Shown here: positions 21,371 to 36,073 of the stretch, in pieces
Position numbering within the stretch: the stretch's first letter is position 1
Layout of the letters: the number at the start of each line of letters is the position of its first letter
Source: Flavobacteriaceae bacterium
GTDB taxonomy: Bacteria; Bacteroidota; Bacteroidia; Flavobacteriales; Flavobacteriaceae
Reading direction: 5' to 3'
Assembly: GCA_030065775.1 (NCBI GenBank)
Contig: JASJDL010000003.1
Span: 1-36,073 of the forward strand
DNA length: 36,073 nucleotides
Made by a program: the position numbers and the translations under genes
The notes under the pieces: generated by a model
Seen by the model: only the letters and a program-made list of their open reading frames with translations
Databases searched by the model: none
Told to the model about the DNA's origin: nothing

Positions 21371-21943
21371 ATGAAAGCCGAAACCCGCAAACAAGAAATC
21401 ATCCTAACCGCTGCAAAACTATTCAAAGAAAAAGGCTACAGTGCCGTGACAATGCGAGATCTGGCAGCAGCCATGGGCATAAAAGCGGCCAGCCTTTACA
21501 ATCACATAGATTCTAAGCAAGATATTTTAAAAGAAATTATTATTGCTATTGCAGAAGCGTTTACTTCAGGGATGGCGACCATTAGAGTATCTGAACAAGA
21601 TGCTGTAAATAAGTTAAAAGAAATCATTGCTTTGCATGTTGAAATTACAGCGAATAATACCTTTGGGATGGCCTCTCTAAATAATGATTGGATGCATCTC
21701 GAAGAACAACTCGAATATTACCTAGAACTTCGCCATAATTACGAAGATAACTTTCGGGATATCATAAAGGAAGGAATTGCCGATAGCGATATAATTGACG
21801 AAAACCCAGATACTATTATGTTTTCGATCTTGACGACACTTCGTTCACTGTATTTATGGATTCCGAAAAAAGAGGATTTAAATCCGGATGAACTTGCCAA
21901 AAGCCTGAGCCGATTACTGATCAGCGGTATTCGAAATAATTAG
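21371..21943 (+). CDS. TetR/AcrR-family regulator, probable PaaR-type repressor
   Basis: This 190-residue protein starts with a TetR helix-turn-helix (residues 4-52): ILTAAKLFKEKGYSAVTMRDLAAAMGIKAASLYNHIDSKQDIL. The rest is an all-helical ligand domain. TetR proteins in front of paa operons in other bacteria (PaaR) repress them and let go when phenylacetyl-CoA binds. The gene is 62 bp upstream of paaE, in the same direction, and an 18-bp palindrome with a -7 box lies in that gap. Ligand and target are inferred from context. Confidence 0.88.
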   Translation: MKAETRKQEIILTAAKLFKEKGYSAVTMRDLAAAMGIKAASLYNHIDSKQDILKEIIIAIAEAFTSGMATIRVSEQDAVNKLKEIIALHVEITANNTFGMASLNNDWMHLEEQLEYYLELRHNYEDNFRDIIKEGIADSDIIDENPDTIMFSILTTLRSLYLWIPKKEDLNPDELAKSLSRLLISGIRNN

Positions 21944-21954
21944 CAAATATTTTG

Positions 21955-21962
21955 TAAATTTG
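21955..21962 (+). promoter_or_regulatory. -7 box (TAAATTTG) of the paa operon
   Basis: TAAATTTG matches TAnnTTTG exactly, 44 bp before the paaE ATG. Transcription would start near 21969, inside or next to the palindromic operator. A -33 TTG is not obvious. Confidence 0.55.
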
Positions 21963-21969
21963 TACCTGT

Positions 21970-21987
21970 AACTAACAATTGTTAGTT
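21970..21987. promoter_or_regulatory. 18-bp perfect palindrome, probable TetR operator
   Basis: AACTAACAATTGTTAGTT is self-complementary over all 18 bases. It starts 7 bp after the -7 box and ends 18 bp before the paaE ATG, so bound repressor would block the start of transcription. The core CTAAC-N4-GTTAG resembles the CNAACG-type half sites I recall for PaaR of Thermus, though not identical. I saw no second copy in the window. Confidence 0.7.
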
Positions 21988-22005
21988 TATGATCATTATG
22001 TACAT

Positions 22006-23079
22006 ATGGCAGAATTTCACAATTTAAAAGTTGCAAACATTTATAAAGAAACGGAAGATACTTCCGTTGTAACTTTAGAAATCCCATTAGAATTACAGGA
22101 AACTTTCAAATTTAGACAAGGGCAGCATCTGACCTTAAAAGCAATTATTAATGGTGAGGACGTTCGCCGTTCCTACTCTTTGTGTTCAAGCCCCATTGAG
22201 AAGACGTGGAAAGTCGCTGTAAAGAAGATTCCTGAGGGAAAGTTTTCGACTTTCATTAATGAAACTCTAAAAGATGGCGATGAAATTGAAGTGATGGCAC
22301 CCAGTGGTACATTCGGTGTTGATTGCAGTCCTGAACGGGCAAAGAATTATTTGTTTTTTGCTGCAGGAAGCGGTATTACACCGATTCTTTCAATGATTAA
22401 AATGCATTTGGCGGCTGAGCCTAATTCAACATGTAAATTATTTTACGTCAATAAGACTGCAAAATCTATTATCTTTAAAGAAGAGTTAGAACAGCTTAGA
22501 AATAAATATTTTGGCAGGCTGGAAATCTATTATTTTTTAACCAAAGAGCGCCGGGATATTGACTTGTTTAATGGCAGGTTTGATGATGAAAAAATGCGAG
22601 TTCTTACCACAACGTTTATTGACATTCCAGATACGAGTGAGGTTTTTCTTTGTGGCCCAGAACAAATGGTCAACTATGTAAGTTCGTATTTAATTGATGC
22701 AGGTTTACCAAAAGAGCTTATCCATTTTGAATTATTCGTTACTGGCCTTTCTGAAGAAGATATAAAAAGGGCGGAGCGCTTGGCGAAGCAAAATGTTGAA
22801 GGTATTGAGGTTACTATAATTGATGGTGGAAAAGAGTTTGAATTCACCATGACAAAAGAATATGACAATATCTTAGATGCGGCTTTAGGGGCTGGAGCAG
22901 ATCTACCATTCGCCTGTAAAGGCGGTGTTTGCAGCACATGTAAATGTCAAGTAATAGAAGGCGACATAGAAATGAAAATTAACTATGCCTTAGAAGATAA
23001 AGAAGTCGAACAAAATTTTGTGCTGAGTTGTCAGGCAGTGCCAACATCAGAGAAAGTAGTTGTCGATTTCGACGTATAA
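22006..23079 (+). CDS. paaE: Phenylacetyl-CoA epoxidase reductase subunit PaaE
   Basis: This 357-residue flavoprotein passes electrons from NAD(P)H to the PaaABC(D) di-iron epoxidase. The FAD domain shows [10 protein letters not shown], then a NAD-binding domain ([24 protein letters not shown]). The C-terminal plant-type [2Fe-2S] domain has C304, C309, C312 and C342. Start is ATG at 22006 (MAEFHNLK); a TTG 27 bp upstream lies inside the palindromic operator and is unlikely. Here paaE leads the operon rather than following paaABCD as in E. coli. Confidence 0.95.
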
Positions 23080-23095
23080 TATAAACTCAACAACT

Positions 23096-24046
23096 ATGAG
23101 TGAAGAACAAATAATGAGTCTAGAAAAATATTTTGAAGAACGTATTGCGCGCGATGAAAAGATTGAACCTAAAGACTGGATGCCTGAGAAGTATCGCCAG
23201 ACACATATTAGGCAGATGTCTCAGCACGCACATTCGGAAGTCGTTGGAATGCTTCCCGAGGGTAATTGGATCACCCGTGCACCTTCTTTACGCCGTAAAG
23301 TTGCCTTACTGGCAAAAGTACAAGACGAAGCCGGTCATGGTTTATACTTGTACTCTGCAACAGAAACCTTAGGTGTTTCTAGGGAAGAATTGTATGAACA
23401 ATTGCACACAGGTAAAGCAAAATACTCTAGTATATTTAATTATCCAACATTGACCTGGGCAGATATAGGAGCCATCGGTTGGTTGGTTGATGGTGCTGCC
23501 ATTATCAATCAAGTACCTTTATGTAATACCTCTTATGGGCCCTATGCAAGAGCAATGATACGTGTGTGTAAAGAAGAAAGCTTCCATCAGCGTCAAGGTT
23601 ATGAGATCATGATTAAATTGGCGAATGGCACCCCTGAGCAAAAAGAAATGGCTCAAGACGCACTCAATAGATGGTGGTGGCCGAGTTTAATGATGCTTGG
23701 GCCAACTGATGACAAATCAGTGCATACCGAGCAATCAATGAAATGGAAATTGAAACGTAAAACGAATGATGAATTGCGTCAACAGTTTATAGATCAAACA
23801 GTGCCTCAGGCTGATTTAATAGGTTTAAAAATTCCTGATCCAGACTTAAAATGGAATGAAGAGCGAGGCAGTTATGATTTTGGAGGAATTGATTGGGACG
23901 AATTCTGGCAAGTTGTTAAGGGGCATGGGCCAATGAACAAAGAACGTATGAAGGCAAGAGTAGGTGCATGGGAACGTGGTGCGTGGGTGCGAGATGCGGC
24001 CATGGCTTATGCCGAGAAGAAAGAAAAAAGAAAACAAGCGGTTTAA
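23096..24046 (+). CDS. paaA: Phenylacetyl-CoA epoxidase catalytic subunit PaaA
   Basis: This 316-residue ferritin-like di-iron subunit inserts oxygen into phenylacetyl-CoA to give the 1,2-epoxide. Iron-ligand regions are [13 protein letters not shown] (E78, H81) and [13 protein letters not shown] (E161, H164), with E48 as a further candidate. Start is ATG at 23096; a second ATG six codons later (MSLEKYF) is possible. It follows paaE by 16 bp. Confidence 0.96.
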
Positions 24047-24057
24047 ACTATAGTAGT

Positions 24058-24345
24058 ATGGCAACAAAAGATTGGCCACTTTGGGAAATCTTCGTAAGAA
24101 GTAAAAACGGATTGGAACACAGGCATTTTGGTAGTCTTCATGCAGCTGATGCTGAAATGGCACTGGAAAATGCACGCGATGTCTATACAAGACGAAATGA
24201 AGGTGTGAGTATTTGGGTAGTAGAATCGAAGCATATCACTGCTTCGAATCCGGAAAATTATGGTGAATTATTTGAACCGGCTCAAGATAAGGTGTATCGT
24301 CATCCAACATTTTACGATTTGCCCGATGAAGTAAAACATATGTGA
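24058..24345 (+). CDS. paaB: Phenylacetyl-CoA epoxidase subunit PaaB
   Basis: This 95-residue protein has PaaB size and hallmark features: WPLWEIFVRSKNGLEHRHFGSLHAADAEMALENARDVYTRR and later WVVESKHITASNP. PaaB bridges the PaaAC heterodimers and is needed for activity. Start is ATG at 24058, 11 bp after paaA; an upstream start in the same frame would be buried in paaA. Its TGA shares one base with the paaC ATG. Confidence 0.95.
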   Translation: MATKDWPLWEIFVRSKNGLEHRHFGSLHAADAEMALENARDVYTRRNEGVSIWVVESKHITASNPENYGELFEPAQDKVYRHPTFYDLPDEVKHM

Positions 24346-25097
24346 TGAAAGAACATTTATATAACTATATACTAGGTATTGCAGATAATAGCCTAATTCT
24401 TGGACAACGTATGGGAGAATTATGCGGTCATGGGCCAAGTCTTGAAACCGATATCGCCTGTACGAATATCTCGTTAGATTTATTTGGACAAGTACGCAGC
24501 TACTTTCAATATGCGGCTAAGTTAGCAGGAGATGGGAGAACCGAAGATGATATTGCGATGCTTCGAAAAGAACGTGAATATGTAAATGTTCTTCTGGCTG
24601 AGCAGCCAAACACGAATTTTGCGTATACGATTGGACGTCAGTTTTTATTTGATATTTACCATCTTCTGTATCTAACAGAGCTTCAAAAAAGCAAAGATCT
24701 AACGCTTTCAGCAATTGCGAAAAAATGCATCAAAGAAGTAAGTTATCATGTGCGTTTTTCATCTGATTGGGTTAAAAGATTAGGTGATGGTACAGAAGAG
24801 AGTAAACAAAAAATGCAAGAAGCTGTAGACGATTTATGGGTTTATACTGATGAACTCTTCCATCAAACTGAAGCCGATAAAGTTATGATTACCGAAGAGG
24901 TGGGAGTTGATGTGACGAAGTTGAAAGAAGAATACTATACCAGAGTTTCAGAAATCTTAGAAGAAGCTGGATTAAACATTCCGGAGTCTAAATGGTTTCA
25001 AAAAGGAGGTAAGCAAGGAATTCATACAGAACACTTAGGATATCTATTAGCAGATTTACAGTATATGCAAAGAACATATCCTAATATGGAATGGTAA
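24345..25097 (+). CDS. paaC: Phenylacetyl-CoA epoxidase structural subunit PaaC
   Basis: This 250-residue ferritin-like protein partners PaaA. It shows LGQRMGELCGHGPSLETDIACTNISLDLFGQ and RQFLFDIYHLLYLTEL, typical of PaaC, which keeps the fold but not the catalytic iron site. The start is ATG at 24345, giving a TGATG overlap with paaB. paaD follows after 1 bp. Confidence 0.94.
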   Translation: MKEHLYNYILGIADNSLILGQRMGELCGHGPSLETDIACTNISLDLFGQVRSYFQYAAKLAGDGRTEDDIAMLRKEREYVNVLLAEQPNTNFAYTIGRQFLFDIYHLLYLTELQKSKDLTLSAIAKKCIKEVSYHVRFSSDWVKRLGDGTEESKQKMQEAVDDLWVYTDELFHQTEADKVMITEEVGVDVTKLKEEYYTRVSEILEEAGLNIPESKWFQKGGKQGIHTEHLGYLLADLQYMQRTYPNMEW

Positions 25098-25098
25098 A

Positions 25099-25599
25099 AT
25101 GACAACCACCGAACAACATATCGATGAAAAATTAATTCCAATTTTGGAAAAAGTTTCAGATCCGGAAATACCGGTATTGTCAATTATGGATATGGGAGTT
25201 GTGCGAACAGCTATTTTAAGAGGCAACAATGTTCATGTTCAAATAACACCGACGTATAGCGGCTGCCCTGCAATGGATGTTATCGGTGATGATATAAAAA
25301 AGGCCCTTGAAGAAGCTGGATACACTTCGAACATTGAATTGATTTTGGCACCGGCGTGGACAACAGATTGGATTACTCAGAAAGGAAGAAAAGCACTAGA
25401 AGAATATGGTATCGCAGCACCGCTCGATGCTCAAGCAGATAAAGATGTTTTGCTCCATGGAAAACGCCTGGTCAAATGTACCAATTGTGGTTCTCAAAAT
25501 ACAAGAATGGTAAGCCAATTTGGTTCTACGGCATGCAAAGCACAATTTCAATGTGAAGATTGCCAGGAACCTTTTGACTATTTTAAATGTTTGAAATGA
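25099..25599 (+). CDS. paaD: PaaD: MIP18/DUF59-type maturation factor for the epoxidase
   Basis: This 166-residue protein has an N-terminal DUF59 (MIP18) domain (about 8-95) with VSDPEIPVLSIMDMGVVR and the cysteine segment YSGCPAMDVI, followed by a C-terminal Cys-rich part with CTNC, a middle Cys and CEDC, probably a metal-binding ribbon. PaaD is thought to help Fe-S or iron insertion into the epoxidase system. It is 1 bp after paaC and its end overlaps the next gene by 13 bp. Confidence 0.93.
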   Translation: MTTTEQHIDEKLIPILEKVSDPEIPVLSIMDMGVVRTAILRGNNVHVQITPTYSGCPAMDVIGDDIKKALEEAGYTSNIELILAPAWTTDWITQKGRKALEEYGIAAPLDAQADKDVLLHGKRLVKCTNCGSQNTRMVSQFGSTACKAQFQCEDCQEPFDYFKCLK

Positions 25600-25958
25600 T
25601 GTTAGGGCTTCGAACCACTGCATATATCGTAAGTGATTTAGATGAAGCAAAAGCATGGTATGCTAAAGCTTTTAAGTCGGAGCCTTATTTTGACGAACCC
25701 TTTTATGTAGGATTTAATATTAGTGGTTATGAGCTTGGGTTGATGCCTGAAGGTGATGAAGTAAATGTAAAAGGTGAAAACATATTGTCATACTGGGGTG
25801 TGGAGGATATTCAAAATGAATATAAACGCTTATTGGATTTAGGAGCAACAGAACATGAGAAACCCACAAATGTAGGAGGTGAATTAATGGTGGCCTCAGT
25901 AAAGGATCCGTGGCAAAATATAATAGGGATTATTTATAACCCCTATTTCAAACTATAA
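25587..25958 (+). CDS. VOC (glyoxalase/dioxygenase superfamily) protein
   Basis: This 123-residue protein shows the paired beta-alpha-beta3 layout of the vicinal oxygen chelate fold: LRTTAYIVSDLDEAKAWYAKAF, then YELGLMPEG, VEDIQNEYKRLLDLGA and VKDPWQNIIGIIYNP. The first strand carries T-T-A where metal-binding members often have His, so metal use is doubtful. Alternative ATGs at 25596 and 25599 are possible. It overlaps paaD by 13 bp inside the paa operon and is not one of the classic paa genes, so it could bind or convert a pathway intermediate. The function is unknown. Confidence 0.82.
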   Translation: MFEMMLGLRTTAYIVSDLDEAKAWYAKAFKSEPYFDEPFYVGFNISGYELGLMPEGDEVNVKGENILSYWGVEDIQNEYKRLLDLGATEHEKPTNVGGELMVASVKDPWQNIIGIIYNPYFKL

Positions 25959-25991
25959 TTCCTTTTTGATAAGGAAGAATTTAATCTAGGT

Positions 25992-26777
25992 ATGAGTAAC
26001 AATTCAATTCAATTAGAAATTGAAAATAACATAGCACGTATAACGTTGAACCGCCCGGAAGTATTTAACAGTTTTAATCGAGAGATGGCATTAAAATTAC
26101 AATCGGTTTTTGATGATTGTGAGACAAATAGTGAGGTCAGAGCCATTGTCCTTACTGGTAACGGGAAGGCTTTTTGTGCTGGTCAAGATTTAAAAGAGGT
26201 TACTTCACCCGAAATGAATCCTGGCTTTAAAAAAATATTAGAAGAGCATTACAATCCGATCATTAAAAGAATCCGCTCAATCAAAAAACCCATCTTAGCT
26301 GCGATTAATGGAGTAGCTGCCGGTGCAGGTGCAAATATTGCCTTGGCGTGTGACATCGTTGTGGCCCATGAAAAAGTAAGTTTCATTCAAGCATTCAGCC
26401 TAATTGGATTAATACCCGATAGTGCCGGTACTTTCTTTTTGCCAAGGTTAATTGGTTTCCAAAAGGCACAGGCATTGGCAATGCTTGGTGATAAGGTTTC
26501 TGCCCAAGAGGCAGAGCGCATCGGCATGATCTACAAAGTAGTTACCTTGGAGCATTTCGAAGAAGAAGTTCAAAAACTAGCACTCAAATTGTCTAAAATG
26601 CCAACAAAGGCGCTCGGGATGATTAAAGAACTGTTCAATGCATCAATGAATAATACCTTGAATCAACAACTCGAAATGGAATCAAAATACCAGATTGAAG
26701 CAGCTCAAAGTGAAGACTATGCCGAAGGTGTCGCCGCGTTTATTGAAAAACGTCAACCAAACTTTAAAGGAAAGTAA
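25992..26777 (+). CDS. paaG: PaaG: ring-1,2-epoxyphenylacetyl-CoA isomerase
   Basis: This 261-residue crotonase converts the ring epoxide to oxepin-CoA and later shifts a double bond. The crotonase oxyanion segment (FCAGQDLKEV) is present. SFIQAFSLIGLIPDSAGTFFLP is specific for PaaG, with D143 as the catalytic Asp; the first hydratase Glu is replaced by Asn (GAGANIALACD), also as in PaaG. Its TAA and the paaH ATG share one base (TAATG). Confidence 0.93.
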   Translation: MSNNSIQLEIENNIARITLNRPEVFNSFNREMALKLQSVFDDCETNSEVRAIVLTGNGKAFCAGQDLKEVTSPEMNPGFKKILEEHYNPIIKRIRSIKKPILAAINGVAAGAGANIALACDIVVAHEKVSFIQAFSLIGLIPDSAGTFFLPRLIGFQKAQALAMLGDKVSAQEAERIGMIYKVVTLEHFEEEVQKLALKLSKMPTKALGMIKELFNASMNNTLNQQLEMESKYQIEAAQSEDYAEGVAAFIEKRQPNFKGK

Positions 26778-27931
26778 TGAATGTAGGTATTATAGGCTCA
26801 GGCACCATGGGAAGTGGTATTGCGCAAGTGGCAGCCACCGCCGGTTGCACGGTAAAATTGTTCGATACAGATCAAGCCGCCTTAAAGAAGGCGAAAACGA
26901 ACCTTGAAAAAATTCTGTCCCGCTTGATAGCAAAAGAAAGAATTGATGAAGCTGAAAAATCCCGTATACAGGATAATATCACGTATGTAGCCAGTTTACA
27001 TGATTTGTCGGATTCCCATTTGACTATTGAGGCTATTATTGAAAACCTTGAAATCAAGCAAAAGGTGTTCGCAGAGTTGGAAACATATGTGTCGCCTGAT
27101 TGTATCTTAGCTTCCAATACGTCATCATTATCAATTGCCTCCATAGCCTCATCTTTAACAAAACCGGAACGCTGTATTGGTATTCATTTTTTTAATCCCG
27201 TCCCCTTAATGAAACTGGTGGAGATTATTCCTGCAATGCAAACCTCAAAAAAAGTATTGAATCAAGCTACGACGACCATGAATGATTGGAATAAAGTAGT
27301 GACCATAGCAAAAGATACTCCGGGCTTTATTGTAAATCGAGTAGCGAGGCCTTTTTATGGGGAAGCGTTGCGTATTTATGAAGAAGGACTGGCTGATTTT
27401 TCGACCATTGATTGGAGTATGAAAACTATCGGTGGTTTTCGAATGGGCCCGTTTGAGCTCATGGATTTCATAGGTAATGATGTGAATTATACAATAACTG
27501 AAACTGTATTTAAGGCGTTCTACTTCGACCCAAGATACAAACCATCTTTTACTCAAAAAAGATTGTCAGAAGCAGGTTATTTTGGCAGAAAATCAGGAAA
27601 GGGGTATTACGATTATACTGAAGGTGCTGAAAAACCTAAACCTAACGAGGATAACGAATTAGCAACATATATTTTTGATCGGGTATTGGTCATGTTGATC
27701 AATGAAGCAGCAGATGCTTTATTTCTAAATATCGCTTCCGCGGAAGATATTGATAATGCCATGACCAAAGGTGTAAACTATCCGAAAGGTCTATTGGCTT
27801 GGGCTGATGAAAAAGGTATAGATTGGTGCGTAAATAAGCTGGATGAACTATATCATGAATATCACGAAGACAGATATCGCTGCTCCCCTTTGTTAAGAAA
27901 AATGAATAGAGAAGGTAGAACCTTTTTTTAA
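26777..27931 (+). CDS. paaH: PaaH: 3-hydroxyadipyl-CoA dehydrogenase
   Basis: This 384-residue NAD-dependent 3-hydroxyacyl-CoA dehydrogenase oxidises 3-hydroxyadipyl-CoA. The NAD motif is GSGTMGSG at residues 7-14; the catalytic pair is probably H137 in GIHFFNP and E149. The C-terminal dehydrogenase domain has MGPFELMDFIGNDVN. It is about 90 residues shorter than E. coli PaaH (475), so the second C-terminal domain copy is reduced. It overlaps paaG by 1 bp. The paa reading-frame chain breaks after it, where an S23-like gene is inserted. Confidence 0.92.
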   Translation: MNVGIIGSGTMGSGIAQVAATAGCTVKLFDTDQAALKKAKTNLEKILSRLIAKERIDEAEKSRIQDNITYVASLHDLSDSHLTIEAIIENLEIKQKVFAELETYVSPDCILASNTSSLSIASIASSLTKPERCIGIHFFNPVPLMKLVEIIPAMQTSKKVLNQATTTMNDWNKVVTIAKDTPGFIVNRVARPFYGEALRIYEEGLADFSTIDWSMKTIGGFRMGPFELMDFIGNDVNYTITETVFKAFYFDPRYKPSFTQKRLSEAGYFGRKSGKGYYDYTEGAEKPKPNEDNELATYIFDRVLVMLINEAADALFLNIASAEDIDNAMTKGVNYPKGLLAWADEKGIDWCVNKLDELYHEYHEDRYRCSPLLRKMNREGRTFF

Positions 27932-27946
27932 TCAGGAATTAGGGAT

Positions 27947-28354
27947 TGGGTATAGGGAATGAATAATCTAAGTAAATATCATTTTAAGTTTGAAGACCTA
28001 AACGTTTATCAAAAGGCAATAGATTTTGGTGAATCGACTAATAATTTGGTTAAAAAGTTTCCGAACCATGAGCTTTATGCTTTATCGTCTCAATTCCGAA
28101 GAGCGGCTGATTCAATAGCATTAAATATTGCTGAAGGGTATCCAGGTTCCGATGCTCAATTTGTAAAACACTTGAATCATGCTATTTATAGTGCGAACGA
28201 ATGCGTTAGCTACAGTACAAAAGCAAGAAGACGAAATTATATAAGTTTCGAACAGGATGAAGAAAATAGAAAATCCATTTCTGAGTTAACAAAAATGATG
28301 TCAACTTTAAGAAAGAAAATTTTAGAAAGAATAAATACTAATGCCTAATACCCA
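27947..28354. mobile_element. Possible inserted cassette: four-helix-bundle gene with short inverted repeats
   Basis: TGGGTATAGGG at 27947-27957 and CCTAATACCCA at 28344-28354 (complement TGGGTATTAGG) are near-identical in inverted orientation, 1-nt gap aside, and bracket the four-helix-bundle gene. The left side is also G-rich, with GG and three GGG runs at 27935-27957. No transposase is encoded, so this would be a non-autonomous or passenger unit. The borders are guesses. Confidence 0.35.
27959..28348 (+). CDS. Four-helix-bundle (S23/IVP-like) protein
   Basis: This 129-residue all-helical protein belongs to the S23/TIGR02436 four-helix-bundle family, first met as an ORF within 23S rRNA intervening sequences: FEDLNVYQKAIDF, ELYALSSQFRRAADSIALNIAEGYPGS, FVKHLNHAIYSANECV, then a helix ending in RKKIL. 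Its job is unknown, with nucleic-acid or ribosome links suggested. It sits between paaH and paaI, unrelated to phenylacetate metabolism, and overlaps paaI by 8 bp. Its flanks are short inverted repeats, so it is likely a late insertion that kept the operon in phase. Confidence 0.88.
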   Translation: MNNLSKYHFKFEDLNVYQKAIDFGESTNNLVKKFPNHELYALSSQFRRAADSIALNIAEGYPGSDAQFVKHLNHAIYSANECVSYSTKARRRNYISFEQDEENRKSISELTKMMSTLRKKILERINTNA

Positions 28355-28775
28355 GAACCAAATGCCTTTAAGTGGAGCGAAAATTCCATATAAGATGTTA
28401 CGACAAGACGCCTTTAGTCAATGGTTGGGCATTGAGATATTAGAATGCGAAATTGGCCACGTAAAAGTAGGAATGACCATCCGAAAAGAAATGCTCAATA
28501 GCATGAATTACGCACACGGCGGCATTAGTTATTCGTTAGCCGATACCGCTTTTGGGTTTACAGCAAATACGCATGGAAAATATGCAGTTTCAATCGAAAC
28601 TTCAATTAACCATATCGAAGCATTGGAAGAAAATGATAAACTGGTGGCCGATTGTGTTATTGAAAAAGTGAATAACAAACTGGGCTTCAATGTAGTTGAG
28701 GTCAAACGAGGGGATGAATTGGTGGCGCTGTTTAAAGGTGTTGTTTACCGAACACAAAAAGACTGGGAAGAATAA
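28341..28775 (+). CDS. paaI: PaaI: hotdog-fold acyl-CoA thioesterase
   Basis: This 144-residue protein has the PaaI motif MNYAHGGISYSLADTAFGFTAN and the hotdog pattern ending in GELVALFKG-like GDELVALFKG. It releases CoA from dead-end hydroxyphenylacetyl-CoA. The first seven residues from ATG 28341 are coded by the right-hand repeat of the inserted cassette; ATG at 28362 (MPLSGAKIP) may be the ancestral start. paaJ begins 1 bp after its stop. Confidence 0.9.
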   Translation: MPNTQNQMPLSGAKIPYKMLRQDAFSQWLGIEILECEIGHVKVGMTIRKEMLNSMNYAHGGISYSLADTAFGFTANTHGKYAVSIETSINHIEALEENDKLVADCVIEKVNNKLGFNVVEVKRGDELVALFKGVVYRTQKDWEE

Positions 28776-28776
28776 A

Positions 28777-29985
28777 ATGAAAGAAGCATATATAATTGAT
28801 GGAGTCAGAACTCCGGTAGGAAATTACAAAGGCACCTTAGCTGCCGTCCGTACAGATGATTTGGCGGCATTAGTGATTAAAGAATTGGTCGAACGCAACG
28901 CTGGCATTCCAAAAGAGGCTTATGATGATGTGATCATAGGATGTGCCAATCAAGCCGGTGAAGACAATCGAAATGTCGCCAGAATGGCGCTGCTTCTTGC
29001 AGGCTTACCATTCACGGTTCCAGGGGAAACCGTGAATCGATTATGCAGTTCCGGATTGTCAGCAATTATTCAAGCAAACAGGGCCATTAAAGCAGGAGAT
29101 GGTGATTTATTTATTTCCGGTGGCGTAGAAAATATGACGCGGGGCCCTTATGTCATTGCAAAGCCCTCCAGTGCTTATGGTAACGACGCTAAAATGTATG
29201 ACTCCAGTTTTGGTTGGCGTTTCATCAATCCTAAAATGCAAGAGCTTTACGGAACCGATAGTATGGGAAACACCGCTGAAAACTTGGTTGAGAAGTATCA
29301 TATTTCTCGTGAAGACCAGGATGCTTTCGCCCATTGGAGCCAGATGAAAGCTTCAAAAGCTCAAGAAAATGGCAGATTAACCAAAGAAATTGTTTCAGTT
29401 CAAATTCCTCAGCGAAAAAAAGATCCGATCATTTTCTCAAAAGATGAGTTTGTAAAACCCACTACGACAAAAGATATCCTGGCAAAATTGCGTCCGGCCT
29501 TCAAAAAAGAAGTCGGTAGCGTAACCGCTGGTAACTCATCCGGTTTAAACGATGGCGCCGCAGCAACAATCATTGCTTCTGAGGATGCCGTAAGAACGTA
29601 TAATTTGAAACCCCTTGCAAGAATCGTAAGTTCTGCAGTTGTGGGTGTCGAACCAAGAATCATGGGAATTGGCCCGGTTCAGGCTTCCAATAAAGCCTTG
29701 GAAAAAGCCGGTCTTACCATGAATGACATGGATATCATTGAACTTAATGAAGCTTTTGCCGCACAAGCCTTGGCATGCATCCGAGCTTGGGGGTTAAAAG
29801 ATGACGATGCAAGATTAAATCCGAATGGTGGGGCAATCGCCATAGGGCATCCCTTAGGTATGACCGGAACAAGAATCGCCTATTCAGCAGCTTTAGAATT
29901 ACATGAACAACAAAAACGATATGCTTTAATAACCATGTGCGTTGGTGTCGGACAGGGCTACGCGGCTATCATAGAGAGAGTCTAG
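28777..29985 (+). CDS. paaJ: PaaJ: 3-oxoadipyl-CoA thiolase
   Basis: This 402-residue thiolase cleaves 3-oxoadipyl-CoA to succinyl-CoA and acetyl-CoA. The catalytic residues are C90 in VNRLCSSGLSA, H358 in IAIGHPLGMTG and C388 in CVGVGQG. The start is ATG at 28777, giving MKEAYIIDGVRTPVGNYKG. It follows paaI by 1 bp and precedes the SDR gene by 1 bp. Confidence 0.95.
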   Translation: MKEAYIIDGVRTPVGNYKGTLAAVRTDDLAALVIKELVERNAGIPKEAYDDVIIGCANQAGEDNRNVARMALLLAGLPFTVPGETVNRLCSSGLSAIIQANRAIKAGDGDLFISGGVENMTRGPYVIAKPSSAYGNDAKMYDSSFGWRFINPKMQELYGTDSMGNTAENLVEKYHISREDQDAFAHWSQMKASKAQENGRLTKEIVSVQIPQRKKDPIIFSKDEFVKPTTTKDILAKLRPAFKKEVGSVTAGNSSGLNDGAAATIIASEDAVRTYNLKPLARIVSSAVVGVEPRIMGIGPVQASNKALEKAGLTMNDMDIIELNEAFAAQALACIRAWGLKDDDARLNPNGGAIAIGHPLGMTGTRIAYSAALELHEQQKRYALITMCVGVGQGYAAIIERV

Positions 29986-29986
29986 T

Positions 29987-30586
29987 ATGAAAGTATTGAT
30001 TATAGGAGGAAATGGAACCATTGGCAAGAAGGTAAGTCAACGTCTTCGGGAAAGGCATGAAGTGCTTATTGCCGGAAGAACATCCGGAGATGTAACGGTG
30101 GATTTTTCAGATGCAGGTTCCATAAAGAATATGTTTGAAAAAATAGGAAAGGTGGATGCCATTATTTGTATTGCAGGAGACGCCAAATGGGAGAAATTCG
30201 ATAACCTTAGTGAATCAGATTTTTATATTGGGATTAAAAGCAAACTTATGGGTCAGGTGAATACGGTCAGAATTGGTAAAGACTTTTTGAACAACGGAGG
30301 TTCTATAACCCTATCAACAGGAATCCTGGCCGATGATCCGGTTGATATGACCACCAGTGCCGCTATGGTCAATGGTGCTATCCACAGCTTCGTAAAGGCT
30401 GTGGTATTAGAATTAGAACATATAAGAGTCAATGTTGTTTGCTCAGATTTGGTGGAAGACTCTTTTGAAAAATACAAAGATTATTTTCCTGGTAACACCC
30501 CGGTGCCTATGCATAAAATTGTGGATGCCTATGTGAAATGTGTTGAAGGGAAAATCAATGGAAGAATACTAAGAATAATGGGATAA
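29987..30586 (+). CDS. Short-chain dehydrogenase/reductase-like protein (atypical active site)
   Basis: This 199-residue protein has a Rossmann fold with the GGNGTIG nucleotide loop. Where classical SDRs carry Ser and YxxxK, it reads STGILADDPVDMTTSAAMVNGAIHSFV, with no Tyr-Lys pair. Related small SDR-like proteins share this and may not be active dehydrogenases. It is inside the paa operon, 1 bp after paaJ, so it may serve this pathway or bind NAD(P) only. Function is uncertain. Confidence 0.78.
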   Translation: MKVLIIGGNGTIGKKVSQRLRERHEVLIAGRTSGDVTVDFSDAGSIKNMFEKIGKVDAIICIAGDAKWEKFDNLSESDFYIGIKSKLMGQVNTVRIGKDFLNNGGSITLSTGILADDPVDMTTSAAMVNGAIHSFVKAVVLELEHIRVNVVCSDLVEDSFEKYKDYFPGNTPVPMHKIVDAYVKCVEGKINGRILRIMG

Positions 30587-30587
30587 C

Positions 30588-30605
30588 TTCCTGCGCAGGC
30601 AGGAA
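30588..30605. repeat. REP-like palindrome TTCCTGC-GCAG-GCAGGAA
   Basis: Seven-bp perfect arms with a 4-nt loop lie just after the SDR stop. The sequence matches the dispersed palindromic repeats (TTCCTGC...GCAGGAAT) frequent in flavobacterial genomes, as I remember them. It can act as an mRNA hairpin between the upper and lower parts of the paa operon. Confidence 0.6.
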
Positions 30606-30750
30606 TCTCGCATTAGAGAAAAACGACTCAGGAAATGGAAAAGAGCTTGGAAGGTAAAGCCAATACAAGAAATGAATCCATCCTGGAATGATTTAAGTCT
30701 AAACTGGAAATCAGCTAATAGAAAATTTAGAATTAACAAATAAAAGATAC

Positions 30751-30767
30751 CTGTTTTCGCAGGCAGT
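30751..30767. repeat. Degenerate second copy of the REP-like repeat
   Basis: CTGTTTTCGCAGGCAGT shares CGCAGGCAG with the copy at 30588-30605 and ends 4 bp before the paaZ ATG. The 184-bp region 30587-30770, between SDR and paaZ, has no gene and is bordered by the two copies, which suggests a remnant of a repeat-flanked insertion. Confidence 0.4.
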
Positions 30768-30770
30768 GGT

Positions 30771-33269
30771 ATGAAAAAAATACAACATTATATTCAAGGG
30801 CAATGGGCAGAAGGAAAGGATGAAGGTATACCTGTTTTTGATGCCGTAACCGGTGAGCATTTTGCAAATTCGGCGGTTGAAGGTCTTGATATTCCTGAAA
30901 TTCTGAACTACGGACGAACCATAGGAGGAGAAGTGCTTCGTAAAATGACTTTTCAAGAGCGTGGAAATATGCTTAAGAAATTAGCATTATACCTTACCAA
31001 AAGGAAAGAAGCTTTCTATGAACTAAGTTACCGTACGGGAGCTACCAGAGTAGATAGCTGGATTGATATTGAAGGCGGTTTTGGGAATCTCTTCGCCAAT
31101 GCATCCTTACGTAAATTATTCCCGAATCAGCCCTATCACGTAGAGGGCGATCCTATTGATTTGTCTCGAGGTGGAAGATTTATGGCACATCATATTATGG
31201 TGCCAAAGCAAGGAGTAGCAGTACATATTAACGCCTTTAATTTCCCTGTGTGGGGAATGCTGGAAAAATGTGCCGTCAACTGGATGGCCGGAGTGCCCGC
31301 CGTAGTCTTACCTGCGCCATCTTCGTCGTATTTAGCAGAAGCGGTTGCCCGAGAAATCATTAGTTCAGGCATTTTACCCGAAGGAGCACTACAGATCATC
31401 AATGGAACTGTAAAGACTATTTTAGACACCGTCGAATCTCAAGATGTGGTTAGTTTTACAGGTTCTGCTTCAACAGGAAGACTCCTCAAAGCGCATCCCA
31501 GAATTATCCAGGAGGCAGTACCATTTAATATGGAAGCCGATTCATTGAATGCCTCAGTACTGGGCGAAGATGCCGTTCCGGGAACACCCGAATTTGACAT
31601 TTTTATCAAAGAAGTCCGTAAGGAAATGACAGTAAAATGTGGCCAAAAATGTACCGCTATCCGACGCGTTATCGTCCCTGAAAAACTGATAGAAGATGTT
31701 CAGATTGCTTTGGGAAATGCCTTAGCTAAGGTTACAATTGGTGACCCCCGACTCGATGATGTTCGAATGGGATCTTTAATTAGCAAAGAGCAAGTTGATG
31801 AAGTCAAGAACAGTGTTACTGAAATCGCCAAAAAAGCACAAATCGTTTATGGTGATCTCGAAAAATTGGAAACTATTGGTGCTGATGCCAAAAAAGGAGC
31901 TTTCATAAGCCCTATCCTGATGAGAGAAGACCATCCTTTCGAGAATTTGGCTGTTCATGAACGTGAAGCTTTTGGCCCAGTCAGTACACTAATGCCTTAT
32001 AAATCTTTGGATGAGGCTATTATATTATCACAAATGGGCAAAGGTTCGTTGGTATCTTCAATAGCTACCTTTGATGATACTATTGCTAAAGAATATGTGG
32101 TGAATGCGGCAAGTCATCACGGGCGCATCCTTGTTATGAATAGAGAAATGGCCAAAGAAAGTACAGGTCACGGTTCACCCTTACCAACGTTGGTACATGG
32201 AGGCCCAGGCCGTGCCGGCGGTGGTGAAGAAATGGGTGGCTTGCGGGGTGTGAAGCATTATTTACAGCGCACCGCTATTCAAGGAACGCCTACTACCTTG
32301 ACGGAGATTACCGGTATTTATCAACCGAATGCCAAGTACAAAGAAGCTGCACAACATCCTTTTAAATACCACTGGGAAGATATTCAGGTAGGAATGTCCA
32401 TGAAGACCCACAAGCGTACCATTACCGATACTGATATTATCAGTTTTGCAAATGTCACCTGGGACCACTTTTATGCACATACAGACATCACCTCCTTAGA
32501 CGGCAGTATTTTCGAAAAACGTACAGCGCACGGCTATTTCATTATTTCCGCAGCAGCAGGCTTGTTCGTATATCCAAATAAAGGACCTGTATCTGCAAAC
32601 TATGGATTAGAAGAATGCCGATTCTTACGCCCATTATATCATAACGATACGATCTATGTAAGACTGACCTGTAAACAAAAAGTAGATCGTGATGTCCGCG
32701 GTACCGAGCATCCAAGCGGTATCGTGAAATGGTTTGCCGAAATTTTTGATGTGGAAGATGAATTGGTCGCATTAGCAACTGTCTTGACGATGGTTCAAAA
32801 GAAACAAGAGACTTTTGTCGAAATCAACCGTCAAACAATTGAAGCTTATTTAAGCAAGTTATCAAAGGATACCAAACCTCTTTGGGGAACTATGACCCCC
32901 CAACATATGGTGGAGCATTTGGAATTTTCTACAAGAATTTCCTCAGGAGAAATTCAGGATTTTGATTTCTCTACTCCCGAAAAGATATTAGAAAAAGTGC
33001 ATGCCACACTGTATAATTATAAACCAATGCCAAAAAAACACGCAGCACCAGAAATTTTGGAAAGGGATTTACAAAAACTAAAACATAATGACCTGGAAAC
33101 TGCGAAACAAAAATTCTTGGAGGCTTATGATGATTTTGAAAACTATTTTAAGGAAAATCCCGAAGCACGATTGAAAAATATAGTTTTTGGAGACCTCAAC
33201 AAATATGAGTGGCACTTATTTCATAGAAAGCATATGAATCATCATTTTGAACAATTTGGACTACTGTAA
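30771..33269 (+). CDS. paaZ: PaaZ with extra C-terminal DinB/DUF1569-like domain (three-domain fusion)
   Basis: This 832-residue protein joins an aldehyde dehydrogenase (about 1-520; E255 and C294 match E. coli E256 and C295), a MaoC-type oxepin-CoA hydrolase (about 530-680; D565 and H570 in WDHFYAH), and a third domain at about 685-832. E. coli PaaZ (681 residues) ends before the third domain. That domain has TPQHMVEHLEF and HRKHMNHHFEQFG, a His pattern like the DUF1569/DinB metal-binding bundle. The first two domains open oxepin-CoA and oxidise the semialdehyde. The third could act on a reactive by-product; this is inference. It is preceded by REP-like repeats and followed 2 bp later by the hydratase gene. 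Confidence 0.92.
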   Translation: MKKIQHYIQGQWAEGKDEGIPVFDAVTGEHFANSAVEGLDIPEILNYGRTIGGEVLRKMTFQERGNMLKKLALYLTKRKEAFYELSYRTGATRVDSWIDIEGGFGNLFANASLRKLFPNQPYHVEGDPIDLSRGGRFMAHHIMVPKQGVAVHINAFNFPVWGMLEKCAVNWMAGVPAVVLPAPSSSYLAEAVAREIISSGILPEGALQIINGTVKTILDTVESQDVVSFTGSASTGRLLKAHPRIIQEAVPFNMEADSLNASVLGEDAVPGTPEFDIFIKEVRKEMTVKCGQKCTAIRRVIVPEKLIEDVQIALGNALAKVTIGDPRLDDVRMGSLISKEQVDEVKNSVTEIAKKAQIVYGDLEKLETIGADAKKGAFISPILMREDHPFENLAVHEREAFGPVSTLMPYKSLDEAIILSQMGKGSLVSSIATFDDTIAKEYVVNAASHHGRILVMNREMAKESTGHGSPLPTLVHGGPGRAGGGEEMGGLRGVKHYLQRTAIQGTPTTLTEITGIYQPNAKYKEAAQHPFKYHWEDIQVGMSMKTHKRTITDTDIISFANVTWDHFYAHTDITSLDGSIFEKRTAHGYFIISAAAGLFVYPNKGPVSANYGLEECRFLRPLYHNDTIYVRLTCKQKVDRDVRGTEHPSGIVKWFAEIFDVEDELVALATVLTMVQKKQETFVEINRQTIEAYLSKLSKDTKPLWGTMTPQHMVEHLEFSTRISSGEIQDFDFSTPEKILEKVHATLYNYKPMPKKHAAPEILERDLQKLKHNDLETAKQKFLEAYDDFENYFKENPEARLKNIVFGDLNKYEWHLFHRKHMNHHFEQFGLL

Positions 33270-33271
33270 AT

Positions 33272-34024
33272 ATGACACAACCATACGTAAAACAAACCAT
33301 AGAAAAAGGAGTAGGAACTATTGAATTTTTTCATCCTGCTCACAATTCTTTACCCGGAGATTTACTGGCTCAATTAGCACAAACAATCACAGATGCCGGA
33401 GGGAATGATGCTATCAAAGTCATTGTATTGAAGAGTGGTGGTGCAAGAACTTTTTGTGCAGGTGCAAGTTTTAAGGAATTGATCAATATAAATGATGCTG
33501 AAACCGGACGTGTTTTCTTTTCAGGATTTGCCAATGTAATTAACGCTATGCGAAAATGCCCAAAATTTATTATTGGCAGAATACAGGGAAAAACTGTTGG
33601 TGGCGGCGTTGGATTAGCATCAGCAACCGACTATTGTATGGCTACAAAATTTGCGGCCATTAAGTTAAGTGAGCTGAATGTTGGTATCGGTCCTTTTGTT
33701 GTGGGTCCTGCCGTAGAACGTAAGTTAGGTTTAAGTGGGATGTCACAAATAGCCATAGATGCCAATACTTTTTATCCTGCCGATTGGGCCAGGGAAAAAG
33801 GCCTGTATGCGCAGGTTTTTGAGACCACCGAAGCGTTGGATGAAGCTGTAAAAGAATTTGCTGAAAACTTATGCAACTACAATCCCGAAGCCATGAAAGA
33901 AATGAAGCAAATGTTCTGGAAAGGAGCAGAAGATTGGGATACCTTATTGGCTGAACGTGCACAAATAAGTGGCCGATTAGTTTTAAGTGAATTTACTAAG
34001 GAAACTTTGAAGCGCTTTAAATAG
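33272..34024 (+). CDS. Enoyl-CoA hydratase/isomerase family protein (PaaF-like position)
   Basis: This 250-residue crotonase fits the 2,3-dehydroadipyl-CoA hydratase step (PaaF) by position. The oxyanion segment FCAGASFKEL is present. The first catalytic Glu of hydratases is Gly here (G114, in GGGVGLAS), while the second is kept (E134, SELNVGIGPF). The activity may thus be isomerase or altered hydratase; PaaG could share the load. It starts 2 bp after paaZ and ends directly at the paaY start, with no spacer. Confidence 0.85.
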   Translation: MTQPYVKQTIEKGVGTIEFFHPAHNSLPGDLLAQLAQTITDAGGNDAIKVIVLKSGGARTFCAGASFKELININDAETGRVFFSGFANVINAMRKCPKFIIGRIQGKTVGGGVGLASATDYCMATKFAAIKLSELNVGIGPFVVGPAVERKLGLSGMSQIAIDANTFYPADWAREKGLYAQVFETTEALDEAVKEFAENLCNYNPEAMKEMKQMFWKGAEDWDTLLAERAQISGRLVLSEFTKETLKRFK

Positions 34025-34621
34025 ATGATCTACGAGTTTCAAGGCTACATACCGGTCGTTCATGAAAGCAGTTTTGTACATCCGCTGGCGGCAGTAACCG
34101 GCAATGTCATTATCGGTAAAGATTGTTATATCGGTCCTGGTGCAGCGATTCGTGGTGATTGGGGACAAATCATTTTGGAAGACGGAGTGAATGTTCAAGA
34201 AAATTGTACGGTACATATGTTCCCTGGAATTTCAATAGTCTTAAAAGAAAGTGCCCATATTGGTCATGGAGCCATTATTCATGGTGCAACAATTGGCCGA
34301 AATGTTCTCGTTGGAATGAACTCAGTCATTATGGATGATGCTGAAATTGGTGATGAATGTATCATTGGAGCCATGGCATTTGTAAAGGCAGAAACGAAAA
34401 TCCCAAAAAGAAGTCTGGTCGTAGGGAATCCGGCTAAAGTGATCAAAGAGGTAACTGATGACATGATCGCATGGAAGACCAAAGGTACCAAGCTGTATCA
34501 GCAACTACCGAATGAGTGTCACAAAACGTTGAAAGAAGTTGAACCTCTACGGGAGGTTCCGAAGGATAGGACTGTTCAGGAAACTACGTATGCCACACTG
34601 CGTAATTTTATGAAAAAATAA
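34025..34621 (+). CDS. paaY: PaaY: left-handed beta-helix (gamma-carbonic anhydrase-like) thioesterase
   Basis: This 198-residue protein is built from hexapeptide repeats (VTGNVIIGKDCYIGPGAAIRGDWG, IGHGAIIHGATIGRNVLVGMNSV), with the conserved R in AIRGDWG and metal-binding histidines in HIGHGAIIHG. The C-terminal helix is WKTKGTKLYQQLP. PaaY hydrolyses 2-hydroxycycloheptatriene-1-carboxyl-CoA and other dead-end thioesters of the paa route. Start is immediately after the preceding stop. Confidence 0.9.
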   Translation: MIYEFQGYIPVVHESSFVHPLAAVTGNVIIGKDCYIGPGAAIRGDWGQIILEDGVNVQENCTVHMFPGISIVLKESAHIGHGAIIHGATIGRNVLVGMNSVIMDDAEIGDECIIGAMAFVKAETKIPKRSLVVGNPAKVIKEVTDDMIAWKTKGTKLYQQLPNECHKTLKEVEPLREVPKDRTVQETTYATLRNFMKK

Positions 34622-34624
34622 TTT

Positions 34625-35923
34625 ATGGAGCTAGAATTAAAGATGCCTAAAATGGGCGAAAGTATTACCGAAGGTACTATTATAAACTGGATGGTCAACG
34701 AAGGTGATCAATTTGAGGAAGGTGATGTACTCTTGGAAGTTGCAACAGATAAAGTAGACAATGAAGTCCCTGCACCAACATCTGGTGTTTTGATAAAGAC
34801 ATTATTTCAAGCGAAGGATGTTGTTCCTGTTGGGGAAGTCATTGCTATTTTAGAAGCTTCCGAAATTTCCAAGTCTTCAGAAAAGGAAGATGTCATTCTG
34901 AGTGATAGCGAAGAATCTCCCAAGAAAAAAGCAAACAAAAAAGTAAAACAGGTTCAGACAGTCACAAAAAGTTTAACTAATTTTTCAGTTAACAATACAA
35001 ATACTTTCTTTTCACCCTTAATTGTCTCAATTGCGAAAGAGCATCATATTAGTTTTGAAGAGCTGGCTCGTATACCAGCGACCGGTAAGGATGGACGTTT
35101 ACGAAAAAGCGATGTATTTAACTATATTAAAGAAGGCCGGCCCTATCAATTTACCCAACCTGTGGTTCACGATCCCACGGCATACAAAATACCACAACTA
35201 GATTTAGATAAAGGTACCGGCAAAATTATTGCAATGGACCGCATGCGCCAGATGATCGCAGATCACATGGTCTATTCGAAACATACATCACCTCATGTCA
35301 CAGCCTACGTTGAAGCCGATTTGACCGAACTGGTACATTGGCGTACTACCAACAAAGAGGCCTTTCAAGAAAAATATAATGAAAAGCTCACATTTACGCC
35401 TTTGTTCGTCGAAGCCGTTGCGAAAGCCATCAAAGACTTTCCAATGATCAATGTATCTGTTGATGGCCCAAATATTATTGTAAAACAAGCTATTAATATC
35501 GGAATGGCTACCGCACTCCCTAGTGGAAACCTTATTGTTCCGGTAGTTAAAGAAGCTGATACTAAAAATTTAGAGCAGTTGTCCACTGAGGTGAATGCTT
35601 TGGCTTCAAAAGCCAGAGAGAACCAGTTAAGTGGTGACGATATTAAGGGCAGTACATTCACAATTTCTAATGTCGGTACGTTTGGAAGCCTTATGGGAAC
35701 CCCAATTATCAATCAACCCGAGGCAGCAATTCTTGCACTTGGTATTATCAAGAAACGACCTGAAGTTATTGAAACCGAAAAAGGTGATGAAATTGCCATA
35801 AGAAGCATGATGTACTTGTCATTATCGTTTGATCATCGTATCGTTGACGGTTATCTGGGAGGTAGCTTCTTACGGCGTGTGGCAGATTATTTAGAACAAT
35901 TTGATATCGACAGAAAAATTTAA
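34625..35923 (+). CDS. Dihydrolipoamide acyltransferase (E2) of a 2-oxo acid dehydrogenase
   Basis: This 432-residue E2 has one lipoyl domain (1-78, lipoyl-lysine K43 in ATDKVDNEV), a peripheral-subunit-binding domain (129-170, GKDGRLRKSDV) and a catalytic domain (about 200-432) with H404 and D408 in SFDHRIVDG. The linker at residues 89-98 is encoded by a dispersed palindromic repeat. The order E2-E1 fits a branched-chain type complex. Being at the end of the paa operon it may serve phenylpyruvate, but branched-chain 2-oxo acids are the default; substrate cannot be read from sequence. The gene starts 3 bp after paaY. Confidence 0.9.
   Translation: MELELKMPKMGESITEGTIINWMVNEGDQFEEGDVLLEVATDKVDNEVPAPTSGVLIKTLFQAKDVVPVGEVIAILEASEISKSSEKEDVILSDSEESPKKKANKKVKQVQTVTKSLTNFSVNNTNTFFSPLIVSIAKEHHISFEELARIPATGKDGRLRKSDVFNYIKEGRPYQFTQPVVHDPTAYKIPQLDLDKGTGKIIAMDRMRQMIADHMVYSKHTSPHVTAYVEADLTELVHWRTTNKEAFQEKYNEKLTFTPLFVEAVAKAIKDFPMINVSVDGPNIIVKQAINIGMATALPSGNLIVPVVKEADTKNLEQLSTEVNALASKARENQLSGDDIKGSTFTISNVGTFGSLMGTPIINQPEAAILALGIIKKRPEVIETEKGDEIAIRSMMYLSLSFDHRIVDGYLGGSFLRRVADYLEQFDIDRKI
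34889..34918. repeat. Dispersed palindromic repeat inside the E2 linker
   Basis: The bases GATGTCATTCTGAGTGATAG followed by CGAAGAATCT have inner ATTCT...AGAAT arms. This resembles the GTCATTCTGAG-n-AGCGAAGAATCT repeat common between genes in many Bacteroidetes (recalled, not searched). Here it is translated as DVILSDSEES between the lipoyl and subunit-binding domains without breaking the frame. Confidence 0.5.
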
Positions 35924-35927
35924 TGAT

Positions 35928-36073
35928 TTGAGCGAAAAAACTTTCAGTAAAACACTTTTAAAACAGGCATTCTCTCATCTCAGCACGGCAAAGGCAATCA
36001 CCGAATTATTTGAAGAGAATTTTCAAACGGTTTCCAAGTATGTCCATGCGACATCAAGAGGGCATGAAGTTAT
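35928..36073 (+). CDS. 2-oxo acid dehydrogenase E1 subunit, N-terminal start only
   Basis: After the E2 stop an open frame runs to the window edge: LSEKTFSKTL...KAITELFEENFQTVSKYVHATSRGHEV, the typical start of the E1 (often alpha-beta fused) protein of branched-chain type complexes, where SRGHE leads into the thiamine-binding region. The best start is TTG at 35928; the ATG at 35923 is in another frame and meets TGA at once. It lies 4 bp after E2. Only 48 codons are visible. Confidence 0.65.
   Translation, partial: MSEKTFSKTLLKQAFSHLSTAKAITELFEENFQTVSKYVHATSRGHEV

Follow-up and report, generated by a model that had tools for sequence, protein, structure and literature searches.

The textbook paa pathway begins with the phenylacetate-CoA ligase PaaK. 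The canonical pathway of E. coli and Pseudomonas has PaaABCDE, PaaG, PaaZ, PaaJ, PaaH and PaaY in common with the locus described here, but it has PaaK where this locus and its relatives have instead the E2 and E1 genes of a 2-oxo acid dehydrogenase complex, with or without an aminotransferase gene between them. Direct conversion of phenylpyruvate to phenylacetyl-CoA has already been reported or proposed elsewhere. The enzyme of Phaeobacter inhibens is an indolepyruvate-type ferredoxin oxidoreductase, in a different bacterial class, whereas a lipoyl-dependent dehydrogenase complex is encoded here. P. inhibens is reported to convert phenylalanine via phenylpyruvate to phenylacetyl-CoA for tropodithietic acid, with phenylacetate bypassed (PMC7497051). 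For Streptomyces pristinaespiralis, the sections of two reports drawn on here propose a pyruvate-dehydrogenase-like complex, PglB/PglC, that turns phenylpyruvate into phenylacetyl-CoA; they describe separate alpha and beta genes and name no E2 gene (PMC7089894, PMC10685826), whereas the present locus encodes a fused E1 together with an E2. PglB/PglC is biosynthetic, serving the formation of the phenylglycine of pristinamycin, whereas the complex described here would be catabolic, and the likeness between the two is one of description. The branched-chain 2-oxo acid dehydrogenases (1dtw, 1qs0, 1um9) belong to the same E1 and E2 domain families and are matched first by the beta half of the paa E1, but its alpha half is remote from human BCKDH alpha (61 bits), a second E1 of the relatives, type B below, is nearer (156 bits), and the distribution of the paa E1 tracks that of paa. 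What would be new here is a probable ligase-free paa pathway with an E1 subfamily of its own, a variant of a known complex and a known pathway; within the parts of the open-access literature covered by our searches, no class-wide pathway of this kind is described in Bacteroidota.

The window, that is, the whole stretch of DNA analysed, is an entire contig (C146) of 36,073 bp from a Flavobacteriaceae genome of 2.84 Mb that is 80% complete and in 205 contigs. The paa operon spans positions 21371–36073 on the plus strand and has E2 and then E1 as its final genes. Profile matches place paaE, A, B, C, D, G, H, I, J and Z, a paaF-like crotonase and paaY in the operon. It opens with a TetR-family regulator in the position of paaR (21371–21943), a homologue of which lies upstream of paaE in many relatives. 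The epoxidase subunits PaaA, B, C and E exceed the cut-offs of their curated models: paaE (22009–23079, read from 21979; TIGR02160, 421 bits, barely passing the cut-off of 420.8), paaA, the catalytic subunit (23060–24046; TIGR02156, 531 bits), paaB (24058–24345; TIGR02157, 152 bits) and paaC (24342–25097; TIGR02158, 277 bits). Next come paaD (25099–25599; TIGR02159, 180 bits), a glyoxalase-fold protein (25587–25958; PF00903), a paaG-like isomerase (25992–26777; best match TIGR02280, 314 bits, under the cut-off of 345) and a paaH-like 3-hydroxyacyl-CoA dehydrogenase (26777–27931; NF006124, 515 bits, above cut-off, and the PaaH model TIGR02279, 463 bits, below it). Farther on lie a paaI-like thioesterase (28341–28775; TIGR02286, 94 bits, below cut-off), paaJ, the 3-oxoadipyl-CoA thiolase (28777–29985; TIGR02430, 605 bits, above cut-off), a short-chain dehydrogenase (29987–30586; NF005754, 260 bits), paaZ for the bifunctional ring-opening enzyme (30771–33269; TIGR02278, 871 bits), a crotonase that is paaF by position (33272–34024; none of the 25 models shown exceeds its cut-off) and paaY (34025–34621; best match TIGR02287, 247 bits, below cut-off). 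The names paaG, H, I and Y follow the best paa match, each gene scoring under the paa model's own cut-off. On the minus strand, the divergent neighbour is an aromatic amino acid hydroxylase of the PRK14056 type (19518–21290; NF010657, 823 bits, above cut-off), matched, whole or cut, in 5 of 80 relatives' loci, the flanks of most of which end before that point. Promoter and terminator scans gave counts no different from the range of shuffled sequences.

The PaaZ of the window has 832 amino acids; the 664-position model stops at residue 677, leaving about 155 C-terminal residues. A PaaZ of about 832 amino acids is common to many members of the family, and that of many other Bacteroidia has about 690. 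Between paaH and paaI lies a gene for a four-helix-bundle protein (27959–28348, plus strand; TIGR02436), probably outside the pathway and of variable position among relatives, with a very remote likeness to the retroelement protein Avd. Such genes are found in 17 of the 80 loci (L014, L027, L037, L038, L056, L063 and L066 among them), each at one of five intergenic slots, as if mobile, and in L038, L066 and L073 they fill two slots simultaneously; the inverted repeats flanking the gene are weak.

The original prediction described paaE to paaY as present and E2 and E1 as trailing paaY by 3–4 bp, and this is confirmed. The E2 ORF (34625–35923, plus strand) is intact, encodes 432 amino acids with lipoyl, E3-binding and catalytic acyltransferase domains (Pfam PF00364, PF02817 and PF00198), and starts 3 bp past the paaY stop (34621). 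It is 57–81% identical to the E2s of relatives' paa loci and 47% identical to another E2 of its own genome, which has no E1 nearby. The E1 gene (35928–36073, plus strand) has a TTG start codon 4 nt past the E2 stop, and the contig ends after its first 48 codons; the remaining 643 codons are found at the 5'-open end of a second contig from this genome (G000:C153) and align with the E1 of a relative, from residue 47 of the latter onwards, at 85% identity. In this 11.8-kb contig neither a paa gene nor a ligase was noticed when its ORFs were read by eye. The full-length E1 of a relative carries PF00676, PF02779 and PF02780, the thiamine diphosphate domains. Domains of the IorA/IorB type were not found (TIGR03336 gives just 18 bits); E1 and E2 domains are present instead. 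That the adjacency of E2 and paa is more than chance follows from the relatives, in which E2 comes next in 71 of 80 loci, six of the nine exceptions stopping at a contig end; a minus-strand ORF lies between paaY and E2 in 23 of 69 relatives' loci.

No CoA ligase was detected by profile searches among the operon proteins, as the original prediction had it for paaK, and none was found in the rest of the genome with TIGR02155 and PF14535, the two models to which the PaaK searches were limited: the best TIGR02155 match has 20 bits and sits in what by eye is a polysaccharide gene cluster, and PF14535 has no match. The genome being only 80% complete, its lack of paaK proves little. Relatives were therefore considered through 50 of the 80 PaaZ loci, a sample favouring isolates and long contigs to which the odd loci L017, L023, L034, L057 and L068 were added deliberately, and 48 genomes were searched. 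PaaK-grade matches occur in three of them (591, 581 and 552 bits, the last, in G068, with a break near the C-terminus) and 45 are without; the best TIGR02155 match is of 159–177 bits in 17 further genomes and of at most 75 bits, or missing, in the other 28. The model's cut-off of 646 is not reached by any Bacteroidota match, and the assignment as PaaK rests on the score gap between 552 and 177 bits; in L068, PaaK is the top NCBIfam match. The 159–177-bit matches (18 of 48 genomes, including G076, which also has PaaK) were considered as hidden PaaKs and rejected, as they fall in the score range of the flexirubin ligase FlxY: the sole one tested, in L097, is FlxY (715 bits, cut-off 520), and the other 17 are judged by score alone. 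The PF14535 cut-off was passed in two of 40 relatives, one with PaaZ (G028) and one without (G017), and none of eight large ORFs (430–590 amino acids) near E1 in relatives looked ligase-like when read by eye. In a class sample of 396 Bacteroidia genomes, for which at least 95% completeness was requested, our own genome excepted, PaaK (E ≤ 1e-100) occurs in 21 genomes, only eight of which fall among the 218 with PaaZ, so that 210 of the 218 are without. The expectation that relatives would also lack paaK is thus clearly borne out, and a paaK elsewhere in the genome, the finding that would have spoken against it, is missing from nearly all of them. The other 13 PaaK-bearing Bacteroidia have no PaaZ (nine in family f43, three in f65 and one in f85); nine of these have two copies (L173 and L176–L181 among the places), and PaaK probably has a different use there, perhaps an anaerobic one.

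In the three PaaK-bearing relatives the gene lies inside the paa locus. In two of these loci, L057 and L068, from Lacinutrix mariniflava and an uncultured Flavobacteriaceae genome, an AraC regulator, an aldehyde dehydrogenase and PaaK are inserted between paaY and E2 (14349–22275 in L057, 14588–20908 in L068), with an intact E2–E1 pair beyond. A large ORF resembling a TonB-dependent receptor by eye follows PaaK in both, and a GMC-oxidoreductase-like gene, also recognized by eye, is part of the insert of L057 only. In L057, PaaK has a break close to the C-terminal end, and the aldehyde dehydrogenase of L068 scores under the cut-off of every aminobutyraldehyde or phenylacetaldehyde model that it matches. 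In L023, PaaK comes after E1, both in a single gene run. An inverse correlation, paaK or E2–E1, was considered for L057 and L068, which have PaaK and no E2 beside paaY, and was rejected because E2–E1 persists, with E1 about 8–10 kb past the PaaK island, and because L023 carries both. PaaK is an occasional addition rather than an alternative to E2–E1, and it would fit as an add-on for external phenylacetate or its aldehyde.

The paa-linked E1, whose subfamily is called A1 below, was predicted to accompany the paa genes, and it clearly does: of the 249 family genomes searched, 88 have both PaaZ and an A1-type E1, one has PaaZ alone, one has E1 alone and 159 have neither. Both single-gene exceptions come from contig ends, since in G555 the contig stops just after paaF and in G617 a 6.3-kb contig carries paaF-paaY-E2-4HB-E1. 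PaaZ and E1, each present in 89 of the 249 genomes, are each found in 66 of 186 genera, so that the distribution is not that of one clonal group, although the genomes are still non-independent. PaaZ and E1 share contig and strand in 85 of the 88 genomes, and in 84 E1 is located at most 15 kb downstream of PaaZ in the same orientation, with a median gap of 4.4 kb. Across the class sample, E1 is detected at E ≤ 1e-110 in 213 of 218 genomes with PaaZ and in 82 of 178 without, and matches printed with E = 0 occur in 173 genomes with PaaZ and five without, a division into strong and weaker E1s that is rough because fragmented genes land among the weaker ones. PaaK is more frequent in the PaaZ-bearing genomes with a weaker E1 (5 of 40) than in those with a strong one (3 of 173, p = 0.007); some of these 40 merely have a fragmented A1, and 35 are without PaaK.

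Linkage was counted in the 121 class genomes with both PaaZ and E1 placed (114 strong-E1, seven A2, the other type A group). In 23 of the 114, which come from 13 families including our own, the two genes lie within 20 kb and always share a strand, against a random expectation of about 1.3 genomes for a genome of 3.5 Mb; none of the seven A2 genomes has them this close. In the other 91 of the 114, E1 does not lie within 20 kb of PaaZ and is often on a different contig. Gene-by-gene reading of G098, G371, G112, G145 and G414, chosen because they are linked, gave the order PaaZ-PaaF-E1, interrupted by no more than a single small ORF, and in G606 and G627 E1 is kept alongside paa though distant from it. 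In the PaaZ-less genome G162 (L207, G162:C4), the E1 gene (G162:C4:103919-105904) has 18 stop codons and is preceded by fragments of paaZ, paaF and paaY, whereas G189 and G214, of the same family, retain PaaZ and E1; in G162, E1, paaZ, paaF and paaY have decayed together.

The E1 tree was made by a quick method from 61 type A and five type B sequences, drawn from fetched loci and not at random, and a very long branch leads to type B. A single clade of 38 rows, A1 (SH-aLRT 99), takes in all 22 paa-linked E1s; 35 of its rows come from genomes with PaaZ and three from genomes without. The other 23 type A rows, called A2 here with no claim of monophyly, comprise 16 from genomes without PaaZ and seven from genomes with it, and none is linked. 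That A2 is common in PaaZ-less genomes means that the ancestral role need not concern phenylpyruvate. Eight fixed positions distinguish A1 from A2, and five of them (65, 157, 188, 406 and 468 in L009 numbering) are in or next to what we take, from known E1 structures, to be cofactor or active-site motifs: they fall within or beside YYRD, the GDG thiamine motif, NGW.IS, PIQEA and the stretch ahead of the YHS histidine. These differences are just suggestive, since the motifs were picked by eye afterwards.

The second fused E1, type B, is 30–35% identical to the query E1. It is present irrespective of paa, in 48 of 49 genomes with PaaZ and in six of eight paa-less genomes of the family tested, which indicates that A1 is not the housekeeping enzyme. 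The alpha half of type B has the alpha subunit of human BCKDH as its nearest match (156–159 bits, versus 61 bits for the paa type), and the human beta subunit matches type B of a relative with 244 bits versus 174 for the paa type. The best match of the type B beta half is a pyruvate dehydrogenase (258 bits), whereas for the beta half of the paa type the top match is the branched-chain E1 of Pseudomonas (203.5 bits), with an archaeal pyruvate dehydrogenase at 203.2; type B is thus likely, but no more than likely, to be the ordinary branched-chain enzyme. The second branched-chain dehydrogenase that was predicted therefore stands as far as the presence of a second E1 in relatives is concerned; its identity is one of likeness, and our own 80%-complete genome is the one in which it is not seen.

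The strongest point against phenylpyruvate as the substrate is the class IV aminotransferase gene that separates E2 from E1 in 41 of the 80 loci, trailing E2 at the DNA end in two more and also linked in family f18 (G189). The one copy tested, that of L009, exceeds the cut-off of the branched-chain equivalog model ilvE_II and has branched-chain enzymes as its nearest solved relatives. Branched-chain dehydrogenases classically work together with an aminotransferase of the ilvE_II type, and the branched-chain aminotransferase of E. coli also accepts phenylalanine. Together with E2–E1 the aminotransferase makes up a putative module from amino acid to acyl-CoA, and judged from its sequence it would speak for branched-chain or mixed substrates unless phenylalanine is accepted as well; such a neighbour keeps these substrates in consideration. 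The complex might thus be a second or broad-range branched-chain 2-oxo acid dehydrogenase for leucine, isoleucine and valine, co-regulated with paa since both handle amino acids, with phenylpyruvate as a side substrate at most. The position of the beta half of the paa-type E1, nearest to solved branched-chain E1s when that of type B is nearest to pyruvate dehydrogenase, agrees with this, as does the occurrence of A2 E1s largely without paa. We nevertheless regard it as unlikely: the almost perfect tracking of paa by A1 in the family is not what a branched-chain role would lead one to expect, type B with its BCKDH-like alpha half exists independently, and the missing PaaK would be left unexplained.

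Phenylacetate might still be the entry point, through an acyl-CoA ligase of another family, with E1–E2 catalysing some other linked step. The restriction of the PaaK searches to two models leaves room for such an enzyme, and most PaaZ-bearing genomes with a weaker E1 are without PaaK too, but no CoA ligase was found among the operon proteins, the three relatives that do have PaaK keep it in the paa locus, and the intermediate TIGR02155 matches have the scores of FlxY, which the one tested is; we consider this explanation quite improbable. Still less credible, and in our view close to negligible, is that the neighbourhood is due to descent only and that E1–E2 has no role in aromatic catabolism, for although descent alone can preserve gene order within one family and a minus-strand gene parts paaY from E2 in a third of the loci (23 of 69), the linkage recurs across 13 families in differing gene orders, E1 is kept with paa even when distant from it, E1 is absent from 159 of the 160 PaaZ-less genomes of the family, the lone exception being a contig end, and E1 decayed jointly with the paa genes in G162.

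The distribution, the linkage and the subfamily evidence support the direct conversion put forward in the original prediction, and we think it rather probable that E2 and E1, presumably co-transcribed with the paa genes, form a dedicated phenylpyruvate dehydrogenase complex that supplies phenylacetyl-CoA to the paa epoxidase. Transamination of phenylalanine would give phenylpyruvate, which the fused alpha–beta E1 would decarboxylate with thiamine diphosphate; E1 would pass the phenylacetyl group onto the lipoyl arm of E2, from which it would be transferred to CoA, and the lipoyl group would be reoxidised by an E3 that we assume to be shared. Phenylacetyl-CoA would then enter the epoxidase PaaABC(D)E directly, followed by PaaG/Z/F/H/J, and neither phenylacetate nor an ATP-using ligase would be required. 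The arrangement of phenylpyruvate dehydrogenase and paa is probably class-wide. With somewhat less assurance, we lean towards a model in which the aerobic phenylacetyl-CoA pathway of Bacteroidia is by default a ligase-free pathway for phenylalanine, in which A1, as one subfamily of a fused E1 of Bacteroidota, became a phenylpyruvate dehydrogenase and PaaK was gained occasionally, for instance with the AraC-ALDH-PaaK insert, by users of outside phenylacetate or phenylacetaldehyde.

A 2026 survey inspected 20 genes on each side of the ligase and, in the part considered here, calls complete pathways 'uncommon' in Flavobacteriia (PMC13186573). As that part has it, the survey started from the ligase, and genomes without one would therefore not enter it; neither 'phenylpyruvate' nor 'Bacteroid' occurs in its main text, and 'phenylpyruvate' is not mentioned in the portion of PMC9007349 considered. 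Surveys anchored on PaaK miss such genomes, and in the family analysed here PaaZ is present in 89 of 249. For an E1 family readily filed as branched-chain dehydrogenase, the results suggest a function that is open to testing. If the proposed reading is true, these bacteria should fail to grow on free phenylacetate, and they would burn phenylalanine with a gain of NADH and without spending ATP on this step; throughout one bacterial class, an aerobic aromatic pathway of wide occurrence would begin differently.
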